A stretch of 64,000 nt of DNA from positions 62,001 through 126,000 of the forward strand of contig JAFAYL010000021.1 in NCBI GenBank assembly GCA_019240405.1. Direction: 5' to 3'. Position numbers and translations under genes: made by a program. This document shows positions 4,440-63,918 of the stretch, in pieces. This DNA comes from Acidobacteriaceae bacterium (GTDB lineage: Bacteria > Acidobacteriota > Terriglobia > Bryobacterales > Bryobacteraceae). Within the stretch, counting starts at the first letter, position 1; every line of letters starts with the position of its first letter. A model generated the notes under the pieces. The model saw only the letters and a list, made by a program, of their open reading frames with translations, did not search any database and was not told the origin of the DNA.

Positions 4440-5534
4440 TTATAGTACGACCAATTCTTTCCCTGTAGGAGTTAGAATCTCAGACCCACGGGCCGTTACA
4501 ACTACTGTGTCTTCGATGCGGACACCGCCAATCCCCTCCGCATAGACGCCCGGCTCAATTGTGACCACCATTCCGGGCTCTAACTTGGTTCTTTCCTTCC
4601 GGCCTATGCGGGGTTCCTCGTGAATCTCTAGCCCAAGCCCGTGCCCTGTCGAATGGACGAACAACTTGTCCAATCCGTGGCGGCGCAATACATCACGCGC
4701 GATGCGATCCACTTTTGTACATGAAACACCCGGGCGCACTGCATCGATCGCTGCAAGTTGGCTTTCAAGGACCGCCCGATACATTCGCCGTGCTTTTGGG
4801 GACGGCTGGCCAACGGCATGGGTACGAGTCATATCGCTGGCGTAACCGGCGACGGTCGCGCCCATATCCACCAATAATAATTGATGCCACTGGATTGGGT
4901 TAAGCGTCGGGCGCGCGTGCGGTAACGCGCTGCGCGGGCCCGAGGCCACAATCGTCTCAAACGCTTTACCGTCCGCGCCCAACTGTCGCATTCGATATTC
5001 AAGCTCGGCCGCCAAATCGAGTTCCGTCATGGACTGACGAAAGTGTTGCAAAGCTCGTTTGAGAGCCTCAGAATTCAGTTCGACTGATGATCTTATTAGC
5101 GCGATCTCCTGCGGAGATTTTGTCGCGCGCAGCTTTTCTACCGCGCCAATCGTGGCTTTCAACCGAATTCCCTGACCCTCTTCCCTAATCTGTTGGTAGC
5201 CCTCAAAACTGATTCGGTTTTGCTCGAACGCAATCGATTTCAGACGCATCCGGTGGGCCGATTTCACAAGCTCCTTCGTGAGCGGCCCTTTGGCAATCTT
5301 CAGTTCGCAGCCGGACTCCATTGCTGCCTGAGTCCCATATCTAGGATCCGTAAAAAGAATGCTGCGATCCGGCGTAACGAGCAATGCGGCGTTGCTGCCG
5401 CTGAAGCCACTCAGGTAGCGAACATTAGGAAGCGCCGTTGTGACAAACGCATTGGCGCGAGCTTCTTTGAGCAGAGCGAGGAGGCGCTTCTGGCGAGCTG
5501 CGAACTCGGCGTCCTGTTCCAATCCCGTTCTCAA
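4440..5534 (-). CDS. Xaa-Pro aminopeptidase-like M24 metallopeptidase
   Basis: A 364-residue creatinase/prolidase-fold enzyme expected to release N-terminal residues ahead of proline. The N-terminal domain (about 1-130) contains NVRYLSGFSGSNAALLV. The C-terminal catalytic domain has all five dinuclear metal ligands in order: the D of LVDMGA, the D of SDMTRTH, the H of STGHGLGLEIHE, the E of VTIEPGVY and the E of VRIEDTV. The start is TTG at 5534, overlapping the stop of the quinone reductase gene as TTGA, a coupled arrangement. PepP and PepQ cannot be separated here. It is upstream of accB, a common neighbour in acidobacteria and firmicutes. Confidence 0.92.
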   Translation of the reverse strand: MRTGLEQDAEFAARQKRLLALLKEARANAFVTTALPNVRYLSGFSGSNAALLVTPDRSILFTDPRYGTQAAMESGCELKIAKGPLTKELVKSAHRMRLKSIAFEQNRISFEGYQQIREEGQGIRLKATIGAVEKLRATKSPQEIALIRSSVELNSEALKRALQHFRQSMTELDLAAELEYRMRQLGADGKAFETIVASGPRSALPHARPTLNPIQWHQLLLVDMGATVAGYASDMTRTHAVGQPSPKARRMYRAVLESQLAAIDAVRPGVSCTKVDRIARDVLRRHGLDKLFVHSTGHGLGLEIHEEPRIGRKERTKLEPGMVVTIEPGVYAEGIGGVRIEDTVVVTARGSEILTPTGKELVVL

Positions 5535-6499
5535 GGCCTAAGCAACAATTTGCCGGTTGTCTTGCGCCCTTCGAGATCGCGATGTGCAGTTGCAGCATCC
5601 GCTAAATTGTAGGTCTTGAAAATTTGAACTTGGAGCCGCCCGCCTGCGATCCATTTGAAGAGATCAGATGCGCGCCACTTTAACTCGTTTGGATCGCTGA
5701 CGTAGTTCCCCAGACTGGGCCTAGTGAGGAATAAAGATCCCTTCTGGGTTAATACGAGCGGATCGAACTGCCCGACCGGACCGCTTGATTGCCCAAAGCT
5801 AACCATCATGCCGCGAGGCCGCAAACAATCCAAGCTTTTGTGAAAAGTCGTGCTGCCAACCGAGTCGTAAACAACATCAACCCCTTGATCCTGAGTAAGT
5901 CGCTTCGTCTCTGCGACGAAATCAGTTTGAGTATAGAGGATCACGTGGTCCGCGCGATGTTCTCTCGCGAGTTGCGCTTTGGCTTCGGTGGAAACGGTTC
6001 CAATGACGGTGGCGTCTGCGATTTTCGCCATCTGCACGATCATCAAACCAGCGCCTCCAGCAGCAGCATGGATCAGGCAGGTATTGGCCGGTTTCAGAGC
6101 GAAAGTCGAATGCGTCAGATAATGCGCCGTCATCCCTTGCAGCATCACCGCGGCGGCAGTTTCGAAACTGACGTTACCCGGCAATTCGACCAACATGGAT
6201 TGCGGGACCACCGCGTATTCTGCATAAGAGCCGCGCGCCATTGCATACGCGACTCGCGTGCCGATTTTGAGATTCACGCTCTTACCTACCGCGGCAATGG
6301 TTCCCGCGGCTTCACTGCCCAACTTTACCGGGCTTTCATTTGCTTTATATAAGCCGTTTCGGAAGTAAACGTCGATAAAATTTACGCCGATCGCTTCAAT
6401 CTTGACGAGTACCTCGCCTTCACTGGGCTGAGGCGTGGGTAAATCCATATATGCGAGATTTTCGGGACCACCGGGCGGGTCGGCGACAACGGCTTTCAT
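5531..6499 (-). CDS. qor: NADPH:quinone reductase-like zinc-less MDR enzyme
   Basis: A 322-residue medium-chain dehydrogenase/reductase of the quinone-oxidoreductase group, which reduces quinones or enones with NADPH. It starts MKAVVADPPGGPENL and has the GroES-like domain (1-120) with VKLGSEAAGTIAAVG. The Rossmann domain carries LIHAAAGGAGLMIVQMAK, matching the AxxGGVG nucleotide loop. The zinc-binding cysteines of alcohol dehydrogenases are missing, as expected for this subgroup. It is first in a four-gene run (qor, M24, accB, accC) with a 4-bp overlap to the next gene. The natural substrate is not evident. Confidence 0.9.
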   Translation of the reverse strand: MKAVVADPPGGPENLAYMDLPTPQPSEGEVLVKIEAIGVNFIDVYFRNGLYKANESPVKLGSEAAGTIAAVGKSVNLKIGTRVAYAMARGSYAEYAVVPQSMLVELPGNVSFETAAAVMLQGMTAHYLTHSTFALKPANTCLIHAAAGGAGLMIVQMAKIADATVIGTVSTEAKAQLAREHRADHVILYTQTDFVAETKRLTQDQGVDVVYDSVGSTTFHKSLDCLRPRGMMVSFGQSSGPVGQFDPLVLTQKGSLFLTRPSLGNYVSDPNELKWRASDLFKWIAGGRLQVQIFKTYNLADAATAHRDLEGRKTTGKLLLRP

Positions 6500-57071: not shown

Positions 57072-57479
57072 TCAAGGTACGGGGCGGAACGGGCGGTTCG
57101 CGCCCCAACGGTACACGGTGAAATGCTTATCCAAGGTGAGGATGTCTCCCGTTCGGAGCTCTGAAGCGAGGTGGATCAGGCAGGCATCGGCCAAATCGAT
57201 TTTTTGGTCCCGATACTTTCTCAGGATGCGCTGAATTGCCATGGCGGAGCGGGAAAGCTGAATGGGTATTTGGAACGTGCCGTCGGCCACGTTTTGAAGA
57301 ATAGCTTCGGGAGCTCCGGGAAGGCTTCGCGTCAGGTAGCAAGCTTCTGCGATCACCGGCTCGCACGTGACTAATGGAGCATCGACTTGATCAAGAGCCT
57401 CAACAGAGTCGGTATGACGGAGCTCGCTTCGATCGAGTAGAGCAACAATCACACCGGTATCCAGCAGAACCGGCTTCAA
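57072..57479 (-). CDS. vapC: VapC-type PIN-domain toxin
   Basis: A 135-residue PIN nuclease. Expected acidic residues are D7 (LLDTGVIVALLDRSE), E43 (VIAEACYLT), the DxxD of KIDLADACLIH (about 94-98) and D117 (TLDKHFTVY). The start overlaps the antitoxin stop by 4 bp (57476-57479), so the pair is co-translated. It is the third intact vapC of the window. Confidence 0.86.
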   Translation of the reverse strand: MKPVLLDTGVIVALLDRSELRHTDSVEALDQVDAPLVTCEPVIAEACYLTRSLPGAPEAILQNVADGTFQIPIQLSRSAMAIQRILRKYRDQKIDLADACLIHLASELRTGDILTLDKHFTVYRWGANRPFRPVP

Positions 57480-57706
57480 CCGCCGAAACCTTTCATATGT
57501 TTCTTGTTCGAGGCGAGATCGGAAATGCCCGAAGAAAACTGGCCTGTACCGACGATCCGGGCACGCCCAGCCGGTAATTGAGAAGACGCCATGCGGCGGA
57601 GCGCCTCGCGTACTACCTGGGACGGACTCAAGCCGAAGTTTCGTACCAATTGCGCGAGAGCGCGACGGCTCGCGCCATCCAGCCGGGCTTGAACGGTTAA
57701 TCTCAT
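57476..57706 (-). CDS. vapB: Antitoxin with ribbon-helix-helix domain
   Basis: A 76-residue protein beginning MRLTVQARLDGASRRALAQLVRNFGLSPSQVVREALRRM, a clear ribbon-helix-helix pattern; the tail is for toxin binding. The start ATG 57706 lies 11 bp from a long inverted repeat; an ATG 18 bp upstream would sit inside it. Directly followed by the PIN toxin. Confidence 0.8.
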   Translation of the reverse strand: MRLTVQARLDGASRRALAQLVRNFGLSPSQVVREALRRMASSQLPAGRARIVGTGQFSSGISDLASNKKHMKGFGG

Positions 57707-57716
57707 TGACCGACAG

Positions 57717-57744
57717 TGTAACACAAGCTAGGGATTGTATTACA
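57717..57744 (-). promoter_or_regulatory. Putative antitoxin operator (10-bp inverted repeat)
   Basis: TGTAACACAA (57717-57726) and TTGTATTACA (57735-57744) are inverted repeats, 9 of 10 matched, with 8 bp between, 11 bp upstream of the antitoxin start. Position and symmetry match an autoregulatory site for an RHH antitoxin and are likely bound by the toxin-antitoxin complex. Confidence 0.6.
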
Positions 57745-57758
57745 TTTGGCGGACCGGG

Positions 57759-59696
57759 CTAGAAAAACTTTGTTTTGAAGGCTTCGTAGCGGCGGCGCGC
57801 GAGATTCAGTGACTCGGCGAAAGGCGGTTCGTTGTGGATGTTAGCGAGAAGCGGATCGGTTACCAGATACGGATAGGGGAAGAAGCCGTTCTCGATGCTA
57901 GAGCGCAACGTACGCAGGGCTGAAATCTTGTCGCCCAAAACGGCGTAGCTTTGCGCAATCTTGTAAGTCGCTTCGGGATCGCCCACGCCGCGCTGGCGGA
58001 TCATGTCCTCCACTTTGTGCAGAATTCCGAGAGCCTCAGAATTCTGGCGCGCAATCGAGTAACTCAACGCCTTACCGATCTGCGCATATAAAGAAGGATG
58101 GATTTCGTTGGCGCGGTCAAAGTCCTTAGCCGCGCGGTCCCAATGTTTCAGGTGATACTCCCCGAACCCGCGATAGAACAGAATGAAATCTGAATTCTCA
58201 TCGTCAGGCAGACTTTGAAGGAATTTGTCGTACTCGCCTAGATAGAGATAGGTGTTGAGGACCGCGCCATTAGGTTTCATTCGACTACTGCCTTTTGTAC
58301 CTTCAACAGACTGCCCGCTATTCACCGATGGATCGATCTGCCGGGCGCGCTCACATTCCGCGACGGACTCCCTCAACATGCCGGCGAAACGATAGGCGTA
58401 TCCCAGCTCCCAATGAACCGCAGCTTGCATAGGGTTGCTCTTTAGCGCGTCGCGCAACAGCGGCACGGCCTGTTCGACCTTGCCTGTATCGATAAGCAAG
58501 TTTGCAAGAAACGTACTCGCTTCGATCTGCTTTGGCCGGAGCGCGAGCGCGCGCTCATAGGCGGCTTGCGCTTTGTGATACTGCGCGCGCCCGCCGAATT
58601 CGAAAGCAGCATCGGACGTGTAGCACTGTCCGAGATAGGCCCAGGTCAAGGCGTGCTTTGGGTCGATGTCGGCGGACTTCTCGAGCATCTTGATGGCGAG
58701 CGGGAAATTATGGCTGCCCATCAGATCAACACCGCGCAAGTAGTATTCGTAGGCGAGTGGATTTACAGGTTCGTCAGGCTTGATTCGCTCCGCCTCAGAC
58801 GGCGATAGGTTCAGTTCGAGGGACTTGATGATCTGCTGGGTGACGTTGTCCTGAACGGTCAGAAGCTTGTCATATTTCAGATCGATCTCGTCTTTGCCGA
58901 GAATCCGGTCGGTTTTTGCATCGACCAACTGGTAGGTAATTCTGAGATCGTCGCCTTCGCGAATGAAAGTGCCGGTAAGCAGCGTGTCTACATTCAATTC
59001 CGAGGCGACTCTGGGAATATCGACGGGCTGCGTTCTGTATTTTTCGATTGCCGATGAGGGTCGGACTGTCAGTGAACTTACGGAATCGAGCTTGGTGATA
59101 ACTGCGTCGGCGAGCGAAAAACCAAGAAAGTCGTTTTCGGGATCGTGCTTCACGTTTTGTAGCGGCAGGATTGCGAGGCTGTGCTGCCCACTTGTTGCGG
59201 CCGAGTTTGTTTTCCGCTGGCGCACTAAATAGGCGGTGATTGCCAAGCCGCACAGGATGACTGCCGCAGCGGCGATTACGATTGTCTTCCGACGTGAAGG
59301 GCGTGGGGTTACAGGCGACGGGAGTTGGGGGGCGTGTTCTTCTGGGACCGGCGAGAGCTCAGGAGTCCGCACCTCCTCCACCGAAACTGCGAAGCGGTAG
59401 CCTTTCTTGGGAATCGTCTCAATGTAAGATAGATCGCCGTCGGCCTTCTCCAGCGCCTTGCGGAGGGCAGAAATCGAAACGGTAAGGTTCGCCTCTTCGA
59501 CGAAGCTGCCAGGCCACACCGCGCGCATGATTTGGTCTTTCGTCAAGAGGCGGCCGTGGTTTTCGACGAGATAGACAAGCAGCTCAAAAGCCTTGGGAGC
59601 AAGTGAAACCGGCTGGCCGTCGCGCATGAGACGGTGTTCGGCGGGATCCAAGCGAAATGGGCCGAATTGATAAACCGCTTGCATCTTCAACACCAC
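57759..59696 (-). CDS. Winged-helix (OmpR/CadC-type) transcriptional regulator with TPR domain
   Basis: A 645-residue regulator. The N-terminal winged helix (about 8-105) reads FGPFRLDPAEHRLMRDGQPVSLAPKAFELLVYLVE..., with RKALEKADGDLSYIETIPKKGYRF as recognition helix and wing. One membrane segment (TIVIAAAAVILCGLAITAYLV, about 139-159) follows, then a periplasmic or cytoplasmic FlgM-like beta domain and several TPR repeats (about 300-610). A stretch SVNSGQSVEGTKGSS (near residue 457) interrupts a TPR. This layout is typical of acidobacterial CadC-like sensors. It is divergent from the secreted gene at 59847 and is the intact copy of a duplicated pair. Confidence 0.9.
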   Translation of the reverse strand: MVLKMQAVYQFGPFRLDPAEHRLMRDGQPVSLAPKAFELLVYLVENHGRLLTKDQIMRAVWPGSFVEEANLTVSISALRKALEKADGDLSYIETIPKKGYRFAVSVEEVRTPELSPVPEEHAPQLPSPVTPRPSRRKTIVIAAAAVILCGLAITAYLVRQRKTNSAATSGQHSLAILPLQNVKHDPENDFLGFSLADAVITKLDSVSSLTVRPSSAIEKYRTQPVDIPRVASELNVDTLLTGTFIREGDDLRITYQLVDAKTDRILGKDEIDLKYDKLLTVQDNVTQQIIKSLELNLSPSEAERIKPDEPVNPLAYEYYLRGVDLMGSHNFPLAIKMLEKSADIDPKHALTWAYLGQCYTSDAAFEFGGRAQYHKAQAAYERALALRPKQIEASTFLANLLIDTGKVEQAVPLLRDALKSNPMQAAVHWELGYAYRFAGMLRESVAECERARQIDPSVNSGQSVEGTKGSSRMKPNGAVLNTYLYLGEYDKFLQSLPDDENSDFILFYRGFGEYHLKHWDRAAKDFDRANEIHPSLYAQIGKALSYSIARQNSEALGILHKVEDMIRQRGVGDPEATYKIAQSYAVLGDKISALRTLRSSIENGFFPYPYLVTDPLLANIHNEPPFAESLNLARRRYEAFKTKFF

Positions 59697-60212
59697 AGCG
59701 GTCTGCGCCGACTTCGGGAAGCTCTTTGGAAATTATTTGGCGATTTCTTGGCGAGTTTTAAGGACGAGGAGACCCGGCGTGAACCAGTATGGCCGAGGAG
59801 CCGACGTCGATCCGGTTCCGTTTGAACAAAGGAGAAAAAACTAATCATGAAAAAGTCGCTTATACTCGCGTTCGCCTCAATTGCTCTCGGGATAGCTGCT
59901 GTGCCGGCATCTGCACAGGTTCCCGAGACTACTTTCAATCTGGTGGCTCAACCGAAATTTGTTAACTGTCTGGGGACAACGCATGGTCCGGCACCTACTG
60001 CTGAAGTGATTGTTCAGAGGGGTGAACTGAATGACATTCTGATTCTGCGCGCGCACAACTTAAAACCTAATCTGGCGTTCGACCTGTTCACGATCCAGAA
60101 TACAAATTTAGAGTCGAATGGAGAAGTCAATCCGGACTTCAAGAATTTCGGATTGGCTTGGTATCAGGGCGATGTGCAGGCTGACAGGAGCGGAGAGACG
60201 ACTTTTTTGATA
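59554..60212. repeat. Direct repeat copy 1 (with 62996-63654)
   Basis: The start of the winged-helix regulator, the shared intergenic region and about two-thirds of the secreted gene are repeated 3,442 bp downstream. Positions match exactly at that offset (ATG 59696 to 63138, ATG 59847 to 63289), with no gaps up to about 60212. A weaker match extends upstream to about 59393. Confidence 0.9.
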
Positions 60213-60257
60213 AAGCTCGATCCCGGCTCGATCGAGTTGCAAGGACGTACGATATGA
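59847..60257 (+). CDS. Small secreted protein, truncated copy
   Basis: A 136-residue protein with a clean signal peptide (MKKSLILAFASIALGIAAVPASAQ). It is aligned without gaps to the first ~122 residues of the gene at 63289, sharing QPKFVNCLG, AEVIVQRGELNDILIL, FDLFTIQNTNL and NFGLAWYQ, but then turns into LDPGSIELQGRTI and stops. The full-length copy continues for another 87 residues. The stop overlaps the next gene (ATGA). RBS AAAGGAG lies about 12 bp before ATG. It may be inactive. Function unknown; I know no family outside acidobacteria. Confidence 0.7.
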   Translation: MKKSLILAFASIALGIAAVPASAQVPETTFNLVAQPKFVNCLGTTHGPAPTAEVIVQRGELNDILILRAHNLKPNLAFDLFTIQNTNLESNGEVNPDFKNFGLAWYQGDVQADRSGETTFLIKLDPGSIELQGRTI

Positions 60258-62659
60258 CGGGACGTAAGAATCGAATTTGCGCGACTCTGCTGCTGAGCTG
60301 TGTGCTGCCAATACTGGCCCAACAATCTCCCGGCAGCACGGACAAACCCACGATACCGCGATTGGTAAACTTTGGCGGCGTATTGACCGACGCAGAGGGC
60401 AAGCCGCTGGTTGGCCAAGTCGGCGTGACGTTCTCTTTATATAAGGGGCAACTAGACAACACGCCGCTGTGGAGAGAAACGCAGAACGTCGAAGCGGATA
60501 AGAGCGGCCATTACGCTGTGACGCTGGGATCAACCAGCAGCGATGGATTGCCCTCCGGTATTTTCGTAGGTGGCGATGCGCGCTGGCTCGGGGTGGAACC
60601 TGAGGGACAACCCGAGCAGTCGCGTGTCCTTTTGCTCAGTGTGCCCTACGCCCTCAAGGCGGGCGATGCGGACACGTTGGGCGGGTTGCCGGCGTCGGCT
60701 TTCCTATCGTCCGCATCGCGGGGAGCGCCGTCGAGCGGTTCGCCTGCAGCACCTGACATTGCGGTCGCTGCAGTTCCGGGTGCGCCACCTCCGGCAGGCG
60801 TGGGCGGCAGCGGAGCCACGGATTTTGTTCCGCTGTGGACCAGCAGCACCAATTTGGGTAACTCGATCCTGTTTCAGAGCGGCGGCACGATGCAAGTGAA
60901 CGGCGGATTCGAATTTCCCGCGCTCGGGACAGCCACAGCGACGGCTGGAAAGAACTCGCAGCCGCTAGAGCAAGCTGCGTCGGCATTTGACAGCAGTACG
61001 GGTAAAGCGGTCGCTGAAGCGTTTCAGTGGCAGGCGGAGCCGGCGGGGAACGACACCGCCAGTCCATCGGCCACATTGAACCTGCTGTTCGGCTCTGATG
61101 GTGCAACGCCTAAAGAGACAGGACTAAAGATCGATCACCAGGGCCTGTTGACCTTTGCCGCAGGGCAGACTTTCCCCGGCGGCAAAATTACTGGAAGTGA
61201 AACCATTAACGGGAACCTCTCGGCAACGAACTTGACTGCATCGTCGGGAATTCAGGCGCAGTTCGGGTCCTTCACGGGCAGCAATACTGGTGACATTCTC
61301 ATTGCGCAAAATCAGAACACCAGCGGCGGCATCGGCGTTGTCGGCAACGCCGTCGGCACCACCGGGATCGGTATGGAAGGCAATGCCTTCGGCAGCGGCG
61401 GCACCGGAGTGCAGGGTAGCGCCAGCGGCAGTAGCGGCATCGGTCTGCAAGGTAATGCCACCGGCAATAACGGGATCGGAGTACAAGGCAAAGGTGCTAC
61501 CGGGATAACAGGAACCGCGTCTTTCCCTAACGGCATTGGCGTGGAGGGCATTGGCGGGAACGGTAAAGGCGGTATCGAGTTTAGCATCGGCGTGGAAGGC
61601 ATTAGCGGCGGTATTGGCGTTTCGGGCGTTGGCAACCTCACTGCCGGTAGCGGTGGTATCGGCGTATCGGGGAGTGGTGCCAGCATCGGCGTGTCCGGCT
61701 CGAGCGGTAATAATGGCACCGGAGTCCAGGGGAAGGGGGCCACTGGCGTATCGGGTAACGGAACGGGGCTGGGCGTTGCGGCCATCGCAACGGGCACGGG
61801 CAGCCAGGGTGTGTTCGCCGCCGGCCAGCATCAGGGACTTGCAGCTTTTGCCGACGCCTCGAGTGGAAATCACCAGGGCGTATTTGCTCAGGCCTTTAGT
61901 CCAACCGGCACAGGAACGCTCTCAATGGCTGTGGGTGAGAGTAAAACCGGGCAGTCCCTGATTGGTTGCTGCGCGGTCGGAGTTTGGGGCGACACGAACC
62001 AGACCAGCTCCGGCGCGGCGGCAATAGTCGGCACGGCCGATGACGCTCAAGCGCTGTTTCTGCAGAACAACAGCACCACTCATCTGACGGCCAACATCAA
62101 CAACCCCGCAGCGGGTGCGGGCGTTGAAATCCTAAACGTAGCGGGTAGGGATGGTTCATGTAGCATCGACGGTTTTGGCAACCTGGAGTGTGGTGGGGAA
62201 TTGTTCGGCGAAAACCTCAACGTCAAAAACAATGCCGTTATCACAAATCTCTTCGTCACCGGCCACAAATCGGGTGTGGCGACTCTGGACAACGGCCACA
62301 AGGTAGCCCTCTACGCAGTCGAGGCACCGGAAAACTGGTTCGAAGATTATGGCGGAGGCAGGTTGGAAAATGGCGTGGCCACCATTACCATTGAGCCTAC
62401 TTTCTTCCAGACCGTGAACACAAACCTTGAATACAGGGTGTTCTTGACTCCAAAGGGCGACTGCGAAGGTCTTTACGTGACGAATAAAGGCCCACAAGGC
62501 TTTGAAGTGCATGAGCTGAGAGGCGGCCGCTCGAACGTGGAGTTTGACTACCGCATCATTGCTCGCCGCAAAGGCTTTGAGAACCTGCGCCTCGGTGATG
62601 TGACCGAGGAGATTCGAGCTGCTCAAAACAGAAAACCAGTGAGATCAAACGCGCGATAG
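60254..62659 (+). CDS. Large secreted glycine-rich repeat protein with C-terminal fibre-like domain
   Basis: An 801-residue exported protein (signal peptide about 1-22). The N-terminal domain, NFGGVLTDAEGKPLVGQVGVTFSLYK...GVEPEGQPEQSRVLLLSVPYALKAGDADTLGGL, is a recurring acidobacterial secreted module. Residues about 350-510 are made of short repeats around GxGVxGxxxGxxGIG (for example GIGVQGKGATG and GIGVEGI), resembling a repetitive beta-solenoid or a phage fibre stalk. The end (NWFEDYGGGRLENGVATITIEPTF...YRVFLTPKGDCEGLYV) is a compact head domain. No chaperone domain or phage neighbour is seen. It starts inside the stop of the truncated gene. Confidence 0.8.
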   Translation: MTGRKNRICATLLLSCVLPILAQQSPGSTDKPTIPRLVNFGGVLTDAEGKPLVGQVGVTFSLYKGQLDNTPLWRETQNVEADKSGHYAVTLGSTSSDGLPSGIFVGGDARWLGVEPEGQPEQSRVLLLSVPYALKAGDADTLGGLPASAFLSSASRGAPSSGSPAAPDIAVAAVPGAPPPAGVGGSGATDFVPLWTSSTNLGNSILFQSGGTMQVNGGFEFPALGTATATAGKNSQPLEQAASAFDSSTGKAVAEAFQWQAEPAGNDTASPSATLNLLFGSDGATPKETGLKIDHQGLLTFAAGQTFPGGKITGSETINGNLSATNLTASSGIQAQFGSFTGSNTGDILIAQNQNTSGGIGVVGNAVGTTGIGMEGNAFGSGGTGVQGSASGSSGIGLQGNATGNNGIGVQGKGATGITGTASFPNGIGVEGIGGNGKGGIEFSIGVEGISGGIGVSGVGNLTAGSGGIGVSGSGASIGVSGSSGNNGTGVQGKGATGVSGNGTGLGVAAIATGTGSQGVFAAGQHQGLAAFADASSGNHQGVFAQAFSPTGTGTLSMAVGESKTGQSLIGCCAVGVWGDTNQTSSGAAAIVGTADDAQALFLQNNSTTHLTANINNPAAGAGVEILNVAGRDGSCSIDGFGNLECGGELFGENLNVKNNAVITNLFVTGHKSGVATLDNGHKVALYAVEAPENWFEDYGGGRLENGVATITIEPTFFQTVNTNLEYRVFLTPKGDCEGLYVTNKGPQGFEVHELRGGRSNVEFDYRIIARRKGFENLRLGDVTEEIRAAQNRKPVRSNAR

Positions 62660-62756
62660 CACGACAGCGCTCTTTGGTTGCCCGCTGCTGAATTTGTCTG
62701 CCACTCGGCTGCCTTTTGGGTGTTCCCCAAGCCCCGTTAGAGTTGGACGATTCTCT

Positions 62757-62789
62757 CGCCCGCCTGCTCCACAGCAGAGCGGGCGTTTT
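62757..62789 (+). terminator. Rho-independent terminator after the glycine-rich gene
   Basis: CGCCCGC-CTGCT, loop CCAC, AGCAG-A-GCGGGCG then TTTT: a 12-bp GC-rich stem with one bulged A (62778), followed by a T-run at 62786-62789. It lies 98 bp after the stop of the 801-residue gene. Confidence 0.8.
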
Positions 62790-62929
62790 GCAGGATGCTG
62801 CATTGGTGCTGAAGGTGTCTGTCGTATCCGGGATATGAGTGGCGGTTCAGCCTCGGGATATTCTCTGTGGCCTTCCAGTGCGGGGTCCAGCATGCTTTGC
62901 CATTAAATCGCTGTCGAGAACCAGGGCTT

Positions 62930-63138
62930 CTTTTCAGCGTTATCCTTTCTTGGGAACCGTATCAATTATGGCAGGCACCATCGGCCTTTTCGATACCGTG
63001 GTTTTCGACGAGGTAAACAAGCAGCTCAAAGGCCTTAGGGGCAAGTGAAACCGGCTGGCCATCGCGCACGAGCCGGTGTTCGGCGGGATCCAAGCGAAAT
63101 GGGCCGAATTGATAAACCGCTTGCATCTTCAACACCAT
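62930..63138 (-). pseudogene. Truncated second copy of the winged-helix regulator gene
   Basis: Read on the minus strand from ATG 63138, the first 49 codons (QAVYQFGPFRLDPAEHRLVRDGQPVS...LLVYLVENHG) match the regulator at 59696 almost fully. After that the second copy lacks 101 bp (59424-59553 region reduced to 30 bp), which shifts the frame. A short further match to codons for TIPKKG (62944-62966) follows before similarity ends. It lies in the same place relative to the secreted gene at 63289 as the intact regulator to the gene at 59847 and cannot encode a working regulator. Confidence 0.85.
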
Positions 63139-63654
63139 AGCGATCTGCGCGGATCTCGGGAGGCTCTTTGGAAATTACTTGGCGATTTTTTAGCGAGTTT
63201 TAAGGACGAAGAGACCCGGCGTGAACCAGTATGGCCTAGGAGCCGGGTTCGATCCGGTTCCGCTTGAAAAAAGGAGAAAAAACTAACCATGAAAAAGTCG
63301 CTTATACTCGCGTTCGCCTCAATTGGTCTCGGGATAGCTGCTGTGCCGGCCGCCGCGCAGGTTCCCGAGATCGTTTTTAATCTCGTGCCTCAGCCGAAGT
63401 TTGTCAACTGCCTCGGGGCGGGCGATGGTACGACGCCTAGTGCCGAAGTCATTGTTCAGAGAGGTGAGCTGAATGACATTTTAATCCTGCACGCCGAACA
63501 TTTGAAACCGAACCTCGGCTTTGACCTATTTACAATCCAGAATACAAATTTGCTAACCGACGGGAAAGTTGACCCGAATTTCAAAAACTTCGGACTCGCT
63601 TGGTATCAGACAGATGTTCAGGCGGACAGCAATGGAAACGCCGAGGTCGCTATC
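62996..63654. repeat. Direct repeat copy 2 (with 59554-60212)
   Basis: This copy carries the truncated regulator and runs into the full-length secreted gene. Upstream it has a 101-bp deletion compared with copy 1. The coding parts differ by scattered substitutions, many of them silent or conservative, so the duplication is not recent. Confidence 0.9.
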
Positions 63655-63918
63655 AAAACGATTCTGCTGGACCAGATCTTCGGATTCGATCCGGCCGCAT
63701 CGCTTACGCCCACTCACACCTTCCATGTCGGGTTCTGGTTCAATAAACCGCAAGACGCGGCAGCATGTGGTTTTGATGTGAGCAAACCGACACCGTTCAA
63801 CGGAGAACAGAATGCAGGACCAAACGCAATGATCTCGGTGACGAATTCGTCGACGCACCTGGGTCCACTGTGCACCAGCTCGCACAAAGTTGGATCAGTG
63901 TGGGTTTGCAACGAGTAG
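63289..63918 (+). CDS. Small secreted protein, full-length copy
   Basis: A 209-residue exported protein (signal peptide MKKSLILAFASIGLGIAAVPAAAQ). After the shared N-terminal part it continues AIKTILLDQIFGFDP, THTFHVGFWFNKPQDAAACGFD and PLCTSSHKVGSVWVCNE, with four cysteines that could form two disulfides. ATG 63289 has AAAGGAG about 12 bp upstream. No enzymatic motif is visible. The function may relate to the adjacent regulator, whose intact copy is at 57759. Confidence 0.8.
   Translation: MKKSLILAFASIGLGIAAVPAAAQVPEIVFNLVPQPKFVNCLGAGDGTTPSAEVIVQRGELNDILILHAEHLKPNLGFDLFTIQNTNLLTDGKVDPNFKNFGLAWYQTDVQADSNGNAEVAIKTILLDQIFGFDPAASLTPTHTFHVGFWFNKPQDAAACGFDVSKPTPFNGEQNAGPNAMISVTNSSTHLGPLCTSSHKVGSVWVCNE

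Follow-up and report, generated by a model that had tools for sequence, protein, structure and literature searches.

CadC of E. coli, the regulator of cadBA, joins a winged helix, one membrane stretch and a large C-terminal part in a single-protein regulator encoded beside its target. One study assigns to its DNA-binding domain two promoter sites, Cad1 and Cad2, the first of which holds an AT-rich quasi-palindrome (PMC5430869). Two other sources describe PhoB as acting on the pho box (PMC3348028) and most members of the winged-helix family as binding direct repeats (PMC3960148). Here we describe a locus in the draft genome of an Acidobacteriaceae bacterium (GCA_019240405.1, G000 below; 4.45 Mb in 63 contigs, 3.84% contamination) in which the intergenic region between a winged-helix regulator gene (REG) and a divergent gene for a secreted-type protein (SEC) occurs twice, on either side of a gene for a glycine-rich repeat protein (GLY). 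The window, i.e., the whole stretch of DNA that was analysed, comprises 64,000 nucleotides (positions 62001-126000 of contig C46, which is 193,523 bp long), and coordinates of the locus are window positions. The secreted-protein genes of copies 1 and 2 are called SEC1' and SEC2, and the copy-2 regulator REG2. The history that we favour, with moderate confidence, is that an old second REG-SEC unit had its interior replaced by GLY, that the promoter block recombined later, and that a single REG serves both units.

REG (57759-59696, minus strand) encodes a complete protein of 645 amino acids (aa), as judged from the list of open reading frames (ORFs), Pfam and hydropathy. Its winged-helix DNA-binding domain, at residues 27-102 (Pfam Trans_reg_C, E 8.3e-21), belongs to the same fold family as that of PhoB/OmpR-type regulators, the Pfam scan gave no receiver domain for REG, and TPR families match the C-terminal part. 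There is one strong hydrophobic stretch at ~139-158 (the top three 19-residue windows lie within 138-158, with Kyte-Doolittle means of up to 2.56), so that the protein has, as far as its sequence tells, a ToxR/CadC-like layout with a single predicted membrane stretch. The likeness is one of layout, REG not being CadC itself: it scores 93 bits against the NCBIfam CadC equivalog, the cut-off of which is 400, and differs from CadC both in the TPRs of its C-terminal part and in its neighbour, which is a secreted-type, predicted beta-sandwich protein and not a decarboxylase operon. Our literature search found no work on winged-helix/TPR regulators of Acidobacteria; a study of Solibacter paralogues counts a two-component winged-helix group among them, and TPR regulators are not mentioned in its passages on the subject (PMC3174227).

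A first-pass annotation of this DNA had proposed that a block running from the 5' part of the regulator through two-thirds of the secreted-protein gene is present twice at a fixed offset of 3,442 bp. A blastn self-comparison of the window bears out the duplication: positions 59554-60187 match 62996-63629 at exactly that offset, ungapped and with 84.7% identity over 635 bp, the only other matches at E<=1e-3 being repeats inside GLY. The likeness exceeds shared coding motifs, since the divergent intergenic DNA (150 bp at 59697-59846 in copy 1; 63139-63288 in copy 2) matches collinearly as well, with 134 of 150 bases identical and 16 differing; the same figure rules out chance or coding-motif similarity as the source of the repeat. 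The proposed limits of the block need correction on both sides. Positions 59393-59423 match 62936-62966 at an offset of 3,543 instead, within a decayed piece (59393-59450 and 62936-62992), owing to a loss of ~101 bp from the regulator remnant of copy 2, and what the two copies share of the secreted gene is codons 1 to ~113-123 of 209 (54-59%), which falls short of two-thirds. The regulator is indeed whole and the secreted gene cut in copy 1, and the reverse in copy 2. SEC1' (59847-60257, plus strand) is a secreted ORF cut to 136 aa, in which SEC homology is clear to ~60187-60215; past codon ~123, the homology to five relatives is equalled by 2 to 309 of 500 shuffles and the alignments disagree. 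Copy 2 retains codons 1-48 of the regulator (62996-63138, minus strand; 134 of 143 bases identical to REG) next to the complete SEC2 of 209 aa (63289-63918, plus strand).

The differences between the two copies are very unevenly spread. The 48 shared regulator codons have a synonymous divergence (dS) of 0.25 and a nonsynonymous divergence (dN) of 0.02, and SEC codons 1-23 a proportion of synonymous differences (pS) of 0.16, as compared with a dS of 1.9 for SEC codons 24-113. Synonymous changes are found at 10 of ~52 sites in the 5' coding parts and at 43 of ~62 in SEC codons 24-113 (Fisher p 8e-8), and the contrast is the same for plain base differences (30 of 362 in the 5' part, 69 of 270 in the SEC body, p 5e-9). 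Expressed as identity, the 5' block (regulator 5' end, intergenic region and signal peptide) stands at 91.7% and the SEC body at 75.8%, a step of +15.9 points, whereas 14 between-species comparisons, which were drawn from six sequences and are hence non-independent, gave steps of -7.6 to +4.3 points, none of them resembling the window copies. A change-point at 59909 separates 26 differences in 355 positions from 73 in the next 277, was matched in strength by none of 500 permutations, and delimits a high-identity tract (59554-59908 on the copy 1 side, with its partner at 62996-63350). With the SEC body at between-species divergence and the 5' block closer, the SEC bodies would have split at about the time of the species, and the promoter block would have been shared later.

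These two ages, together with regulator homology that passes the main block to about codon 102, are the grounds on which we depart from the first-pass annotation, which had read the locus as the product of one tandem duplication that had one of its ends within the regulator gene and was followed by reciprocal loss. Such a duplication, with the SEC1 3' end and the copy-2 regulator lost independently, would give the direct-repeat geometry and agrees with the single-copy state of the relatives, but it is quite unlikely given that the SEC bodies differ at between-species level though the promoter is 90% alike. As for the reciprocal loss, both inner genes are indeed cut; two separate events are not called for, since both cut ends face GLY and one replacement, or a single-crossover integration, suffices. 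Purifying selection on the promoter and both gene starts, with the SEC body drifting and no conversion, is the other way in which uneven divergence might arise, and it gains something from the conservation of an upstream motif (described below) before 11 of the 14 REG relatives tested and from the need of SEC2 for a promoter. We consider it very unlikely, given that the 14 between-species comparisons show no clear excess of conservation in the 5' block over the SEC body and that the regulator stub and the signal peptide are conserved at synonymous sites as well.

Gene conversion between linked duplicates leaves an internal high-identity tract flanked by older divergence. The identity step, which constraint leaves unexplained, would be the mark of such an event, and a crossover tract would look alike. 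To the left of the deletion in copy 2, the regulator scrap (62936-62992, minus strand, ~codons 83-102) keeps 45 of 56 aligned bases, which is below the identity of the tract (p 0.014), and the tract may thus be bounded on both sides. What sets this locus apart from the general case is that a divergent promoter lies at the centre of the tract and that one of two regulator copies is dead; among the titles listed by a literature search, none on gene conversion of bacterial promoters matched.

Comparison with relatives, for which one genome per species was used, shows that the doubled arrangement is particular to this lineage, in line with the duplication around GLY that the first-pass annotation had proposed. 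A search of 60 genomes turned up SEC in 10, and a profile search of 237 family genomes in 13 (G000 is counted in both sets); two copies occur only in G000, i.e., in 1 of the 13. Each of 23 related loci from other records (10 of them taken as identical to contigs of our comparison genomes; the same-genus members are metagenome-assembled genomes, MAGs, labelled Acidobacteriaceae, Terriglobia or Bryobacterales) has one SEC and no second within the stretch compared. REG is divergent from SEC at eight of these loci (L076-L079, L090, L092-L094), precedes it on the same strand at three (L083, L084, L086) and is convergent with it at one (L081); the regulator at two others (L080, L088) is no more than weakly similar, and at the remaining nine no REG match lies within the stretch compared. 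REG, being complete, is taken as the ancestral left side of the locus, and SEC2 retains the ancestral right flank, since a 361-aa gene 1.3 kb past the window end is homologous to the gene that immediately follows SEC in G011. The structure is real and specific to the lineage, and its kind, duplication plus recombination, is an ordinary one. That two strains' loci were merged in one contig is hardly credible: the draft is incomplete, in 63 contigs and with some contamination, and the longest exact match between the direct repeats is 64 bp, but this is short relative to ordinary read pairs, the contig extends over 193,523 bp, and GLY has relatives on other contigs of the genome.

The history that we favour, old duplication with later recombination of the promoter, would have run as follows. 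At the ancestral locus REG was divergent from a single SEC, and the region between the two genes contained an 11-bp direct-repeat motif, an arrangement that comparison of the relatives displays. A further REG-SEC unit, dating from about the time of the species splits in the genus, was placed in direct repeat with the first; that it was once whole is our supposition, and the divergence of the SEC bodies, which is at between-species level, is observed. GLY now fills the interior, where the 3' part of SEC1 and most of REG2 would have lain, presumably by one replacement, and the stretch that begins at REG codon 48, spans the operator and ends at about SEC codon 21 would later have been homogenised by gene conversion or formed a crossover tract, as the identity step suggests. 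The remaining REG, in the membrane, would bind both operators and drive SEC1'-GLY and SEC2, the former pair being translationally coupled, on this account, through the ATGA in which the GLY start overlaps the SEC1' stop, and the REG2 stub would be dead. Most likely, one regulator serves two promoters. In what remains of copy 2, the ORF list has no regulator ORF of at least 70 aa, and the scrap contains a stop at codon 100, which together rule out two working regulators. Between the scrap and GLY, a search of 62640-62936 for more regulator or SEC remnants gave only short chance-level matches. The 48 codons of the stub differ from REG by nine base changes, of which seven are synonymous; of the remaining pair, one alters the start codon (GTG/ATG). 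A synonymous excess of this size is rarely expected of a neutral stub (p 8e-4), which is a hint that REG2 was once a working regulator.

GLY (60254-62659, plus strand) encodes 801 aa with a hydrophobic N-terminus, 36-bp repeats in the gene and a phage-tail-like C-terminal part, of which residues 658-784 match phrog_6616 (tail) at E 8.6e-16; a profile match to a phage head fibre is weak (E 0.026). The same three traits, i.e., hydrophobic N-terminus, glycine-rich repeats and phage-tail-like C-terminal part, are shared with the mosaic adhesive trimer (MAT) fibres of Bdellovibrio (described in passages of PMC10769870). GLY differs from these in that it reaches 21 bits against NCBIfam Bdello_MAT_N, over 29 matched residues, where the curated cut-off is 60, and is hence no member by that test. 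The first-pass annotation had placed this gene between the copies with a terminator of its own: the gene is there, and no downstream site on the plus strand passes the scan rule for a terminator. An imperfect GC-rich hairpin followed by TTTT (62757-62789, plus strand), read from the sequence, is a possible terminator that fails this rule. The GLY family occurs in 3 of 17 genomes of the genus, G000 included; relatives lie on contigs C30, C37, C34 and C1 of G000 itself, in G013 and, weakly, in G015. One relative, on C34 of G000 (L059, ~4470-6142), has two stops within the match (one TGA, one TAG) and is probably a decayed family member. On C37, a REG-like ORF that is 31% identical to REG is followed by the C-terminal part of a GLY relative (L058, 6194-6961), and this piece is ~85% identical to the GLY beside the regulator in G013; comparison of these sequences suggests that GLY pieces may move between regulator loci.

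Such an origin from elsewhere is the substance of the alternative in which a relative's DNA, circular or end-joined and carrying the REG 5' end, promoter, SEC1 fragment and GLY, integrated by a single (Campbell-type) crossover at the resident promoter. This predicts the order REG(full)-P-SEC1(cut)-GLY-REG(cut)-P-SEC2(full) (P being the promoter), with an identity peak at the crossover and no need of later loss. It also fits the SEC1 body, codons 24-113 of which are about equally distant (77-79% aa) from SEC2 and from the SEC of G008, G010 and G011, and the occurrence of GLY members beside REG or REG-like genes at G013:C210 and G000:C37. We regard it as unlikely nonetheless: an imported block should diverge evenly unless the heteroduplex was repaired, the trees are too weak to argue for a foreign origin, and a scan of eight window proteins from 54.3-63.9 kb gave no match to an integrase or transposase family, origins not having been searched for. 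A broader form of this thought, to which we give little credence, is that the REG operator-promoter block is a landing pad through which new secreted surface proteins are added to an existing regulon. Incoming fibre-gene DNA would recombine once at the promoter, duplicating operator and promoter and leaving a regulator stub, and the event would be reversible via the repeats. Regulators of the REG family face SEC in near relatives, GLY in G013 and both in the window; in G013, which is 62% complete and yielded no SEC, the gene directly divergent from GLY encodes a REG relative that has 58% identity to REG.

To return to the reading of one REG serving both units, its putative link to the two promoters is a motif that both intergenic copies of the window retain. 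It consists of three 11-bp direct repeats, TTTGGAAATTA-TTTGGCGATTT-CTTGGCGAGTT at 59725-59757 (putative operator 1, plus strand) and TTTGGAAATTA-CTTGGCGATTT-TTTAGCGAGTT at 63167-63199 (putative operator 2, plus strand), both of them identified by alignment, matrix and genome searches; the form common to the relatives is roughly TTTGGAAATTA-TTTGGMGATTY-YTTRG, from which G011 and G003 depart. Repeats in the pho box are likewise spaced at 11 bp. The motif has the head-to-tail repeats at about one helical turn before the target that mark PhoB-type sites, and its repeats would be bound in a like manner; in this it differs from the AT-rich quasi-palindrome of Cad1. Direct repeats suit the family of REG, since winged-helix members mostly bind such repeats. 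A weight matrix was made from six related sequences picked by eye from the alignment, each omitted when its own region was scored; two of the six are the window's own copies, so that the scores of these two are mutually dependent. This leave-one-out matrix was applied to 14 regions that precede REG or its relatives and located the motif in 11, among them 7 of the 8 divergent REG-SEC loci, with none of 200 mononucleotide shuffles as good. When up to 2 mismatches were allowed, G000 contained 5 sites (reversed control, 0), 3 of which are at the locus, including the two best and one that is a second register of copy 1; the 2 elsewhere are both at the full 2 mismatches. The 17 genus genomes yielded 18 sites with at most 1 mismatch as against 2 in the reversed control, and 5 of these, including all three exact ones, are beside REG. 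We infer from this that the 11-bp direct-repeat motif is the REG operator.

Several observations weigh against the reading as a whole. Three of the 14 upstream regions yielded no motif (L093, where 7 of 200 shuffles did as well, G005 with 52, and the second G008 regulator with 71), and at L081 the other strand scores nearly equally, 16.3 vs 17.6. Of the 18 genus sites with at most 1 mismatch, 13 are not beside REG, and an exact search of 101 evenly drawn family genomes found 3 sites vs 2 in the reversed control, one being that of the window and the other two not beside REG; at this chance level, the exact form of the motif is uninformative outside near relatives. The sign of past function in REG2 stays a hint and is no proof, because the synonymous bias shrinks when judged against G008, the nearest relative, by which eight codon differences are polarised as three in copy 1, three in copy 2 (one of them nonsynonymous) and two undecided. 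Trees of the SEC body (90 codons) have low support, 15-76 within the clade, and do not separate SEC1 as a paralogue from SEC1 as an import, and the argument for gene conversion, drawn as it is from identity, names neither donor nor direction. Lastly, the regulator of G013 is nearer to those of G005 and G015 (70-72%), where SEC sits behind REG on the same strand.

The locus supplies an operator prediction, spelled out in sequence, for an acidobacterial regulator of the winged-helix/TPR type whose conserved, secreted-type neighbour has no assigned function, and shows in one place how a regulon can gain a second unit, the promoter having been copied and the regulator not. The first-pass annotation had pointed out that recombination between the repeats would delete GLY, and this is sound in that the product would be the single-copy form found in relatives; variation among strains in the presence of GLY is a plausible candidate, and if the repeats do recombine in populations, GLY would be a switchable surface trait.

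As for the SEC family itself, Pfam, NCBIfam and PHROGs gave no match at E<=0.1, and PDB sequences a single one at chance level (E 0.69). A structure model built from 25 sequences has a predicted local distance difference test score (pLDDT) of 83.4; its best folds by Foldseek are Cu/Zn-superoxide-dismutase-like and weak (E 1.9e-3, template-modelling score ~0.4 by query length, nothing at E<=0.001), and the model predicts a beta-sandwich protein. Relatives of SEC are found in MAGs labelled Chloroflexota, Rhizonema (a cyanobacterium), Acetobacteraceae, Proteobacteria, Deltaproteobacteria and Acidimicrobiia (L082, L085, L087, L089, L091, L096-L098; labels unchecked), from which the SEC family is possibly wider than the regulator pair.

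Some further loci are recorded here for completeness. In G008, contig C203 (L111, 1501-1530; ~11315 on the contig) carries an operator-like repeat of three units, TTTGGAAATTATTTAGAAATTCCTTAGG, which lies ~40-70 bp ahead of an ORF of 468 aa that looks, from its sequence, like an FAD-dependent oxidoreductase. This 3-kb locus has no REG match, and the ORF is a possible further regulon target in that species. On contig C213 of the same genome (L056), a second REG-family regulator adjoins a homologue of the 361-aa gene with no SEC between them, and at L081 (2229-5284) two REG-like genes are mutually divergent, with SEC convergent to one of them. Directly behind REG in the window, at 57072-57724, a PIN-domain ORF (Pfam PIN, E 2.8e-11) and a small overlapping ORF that is weakly RelB-like (below the cut-off) are likely, from these matches, to be a toxin-antitoxin pair.

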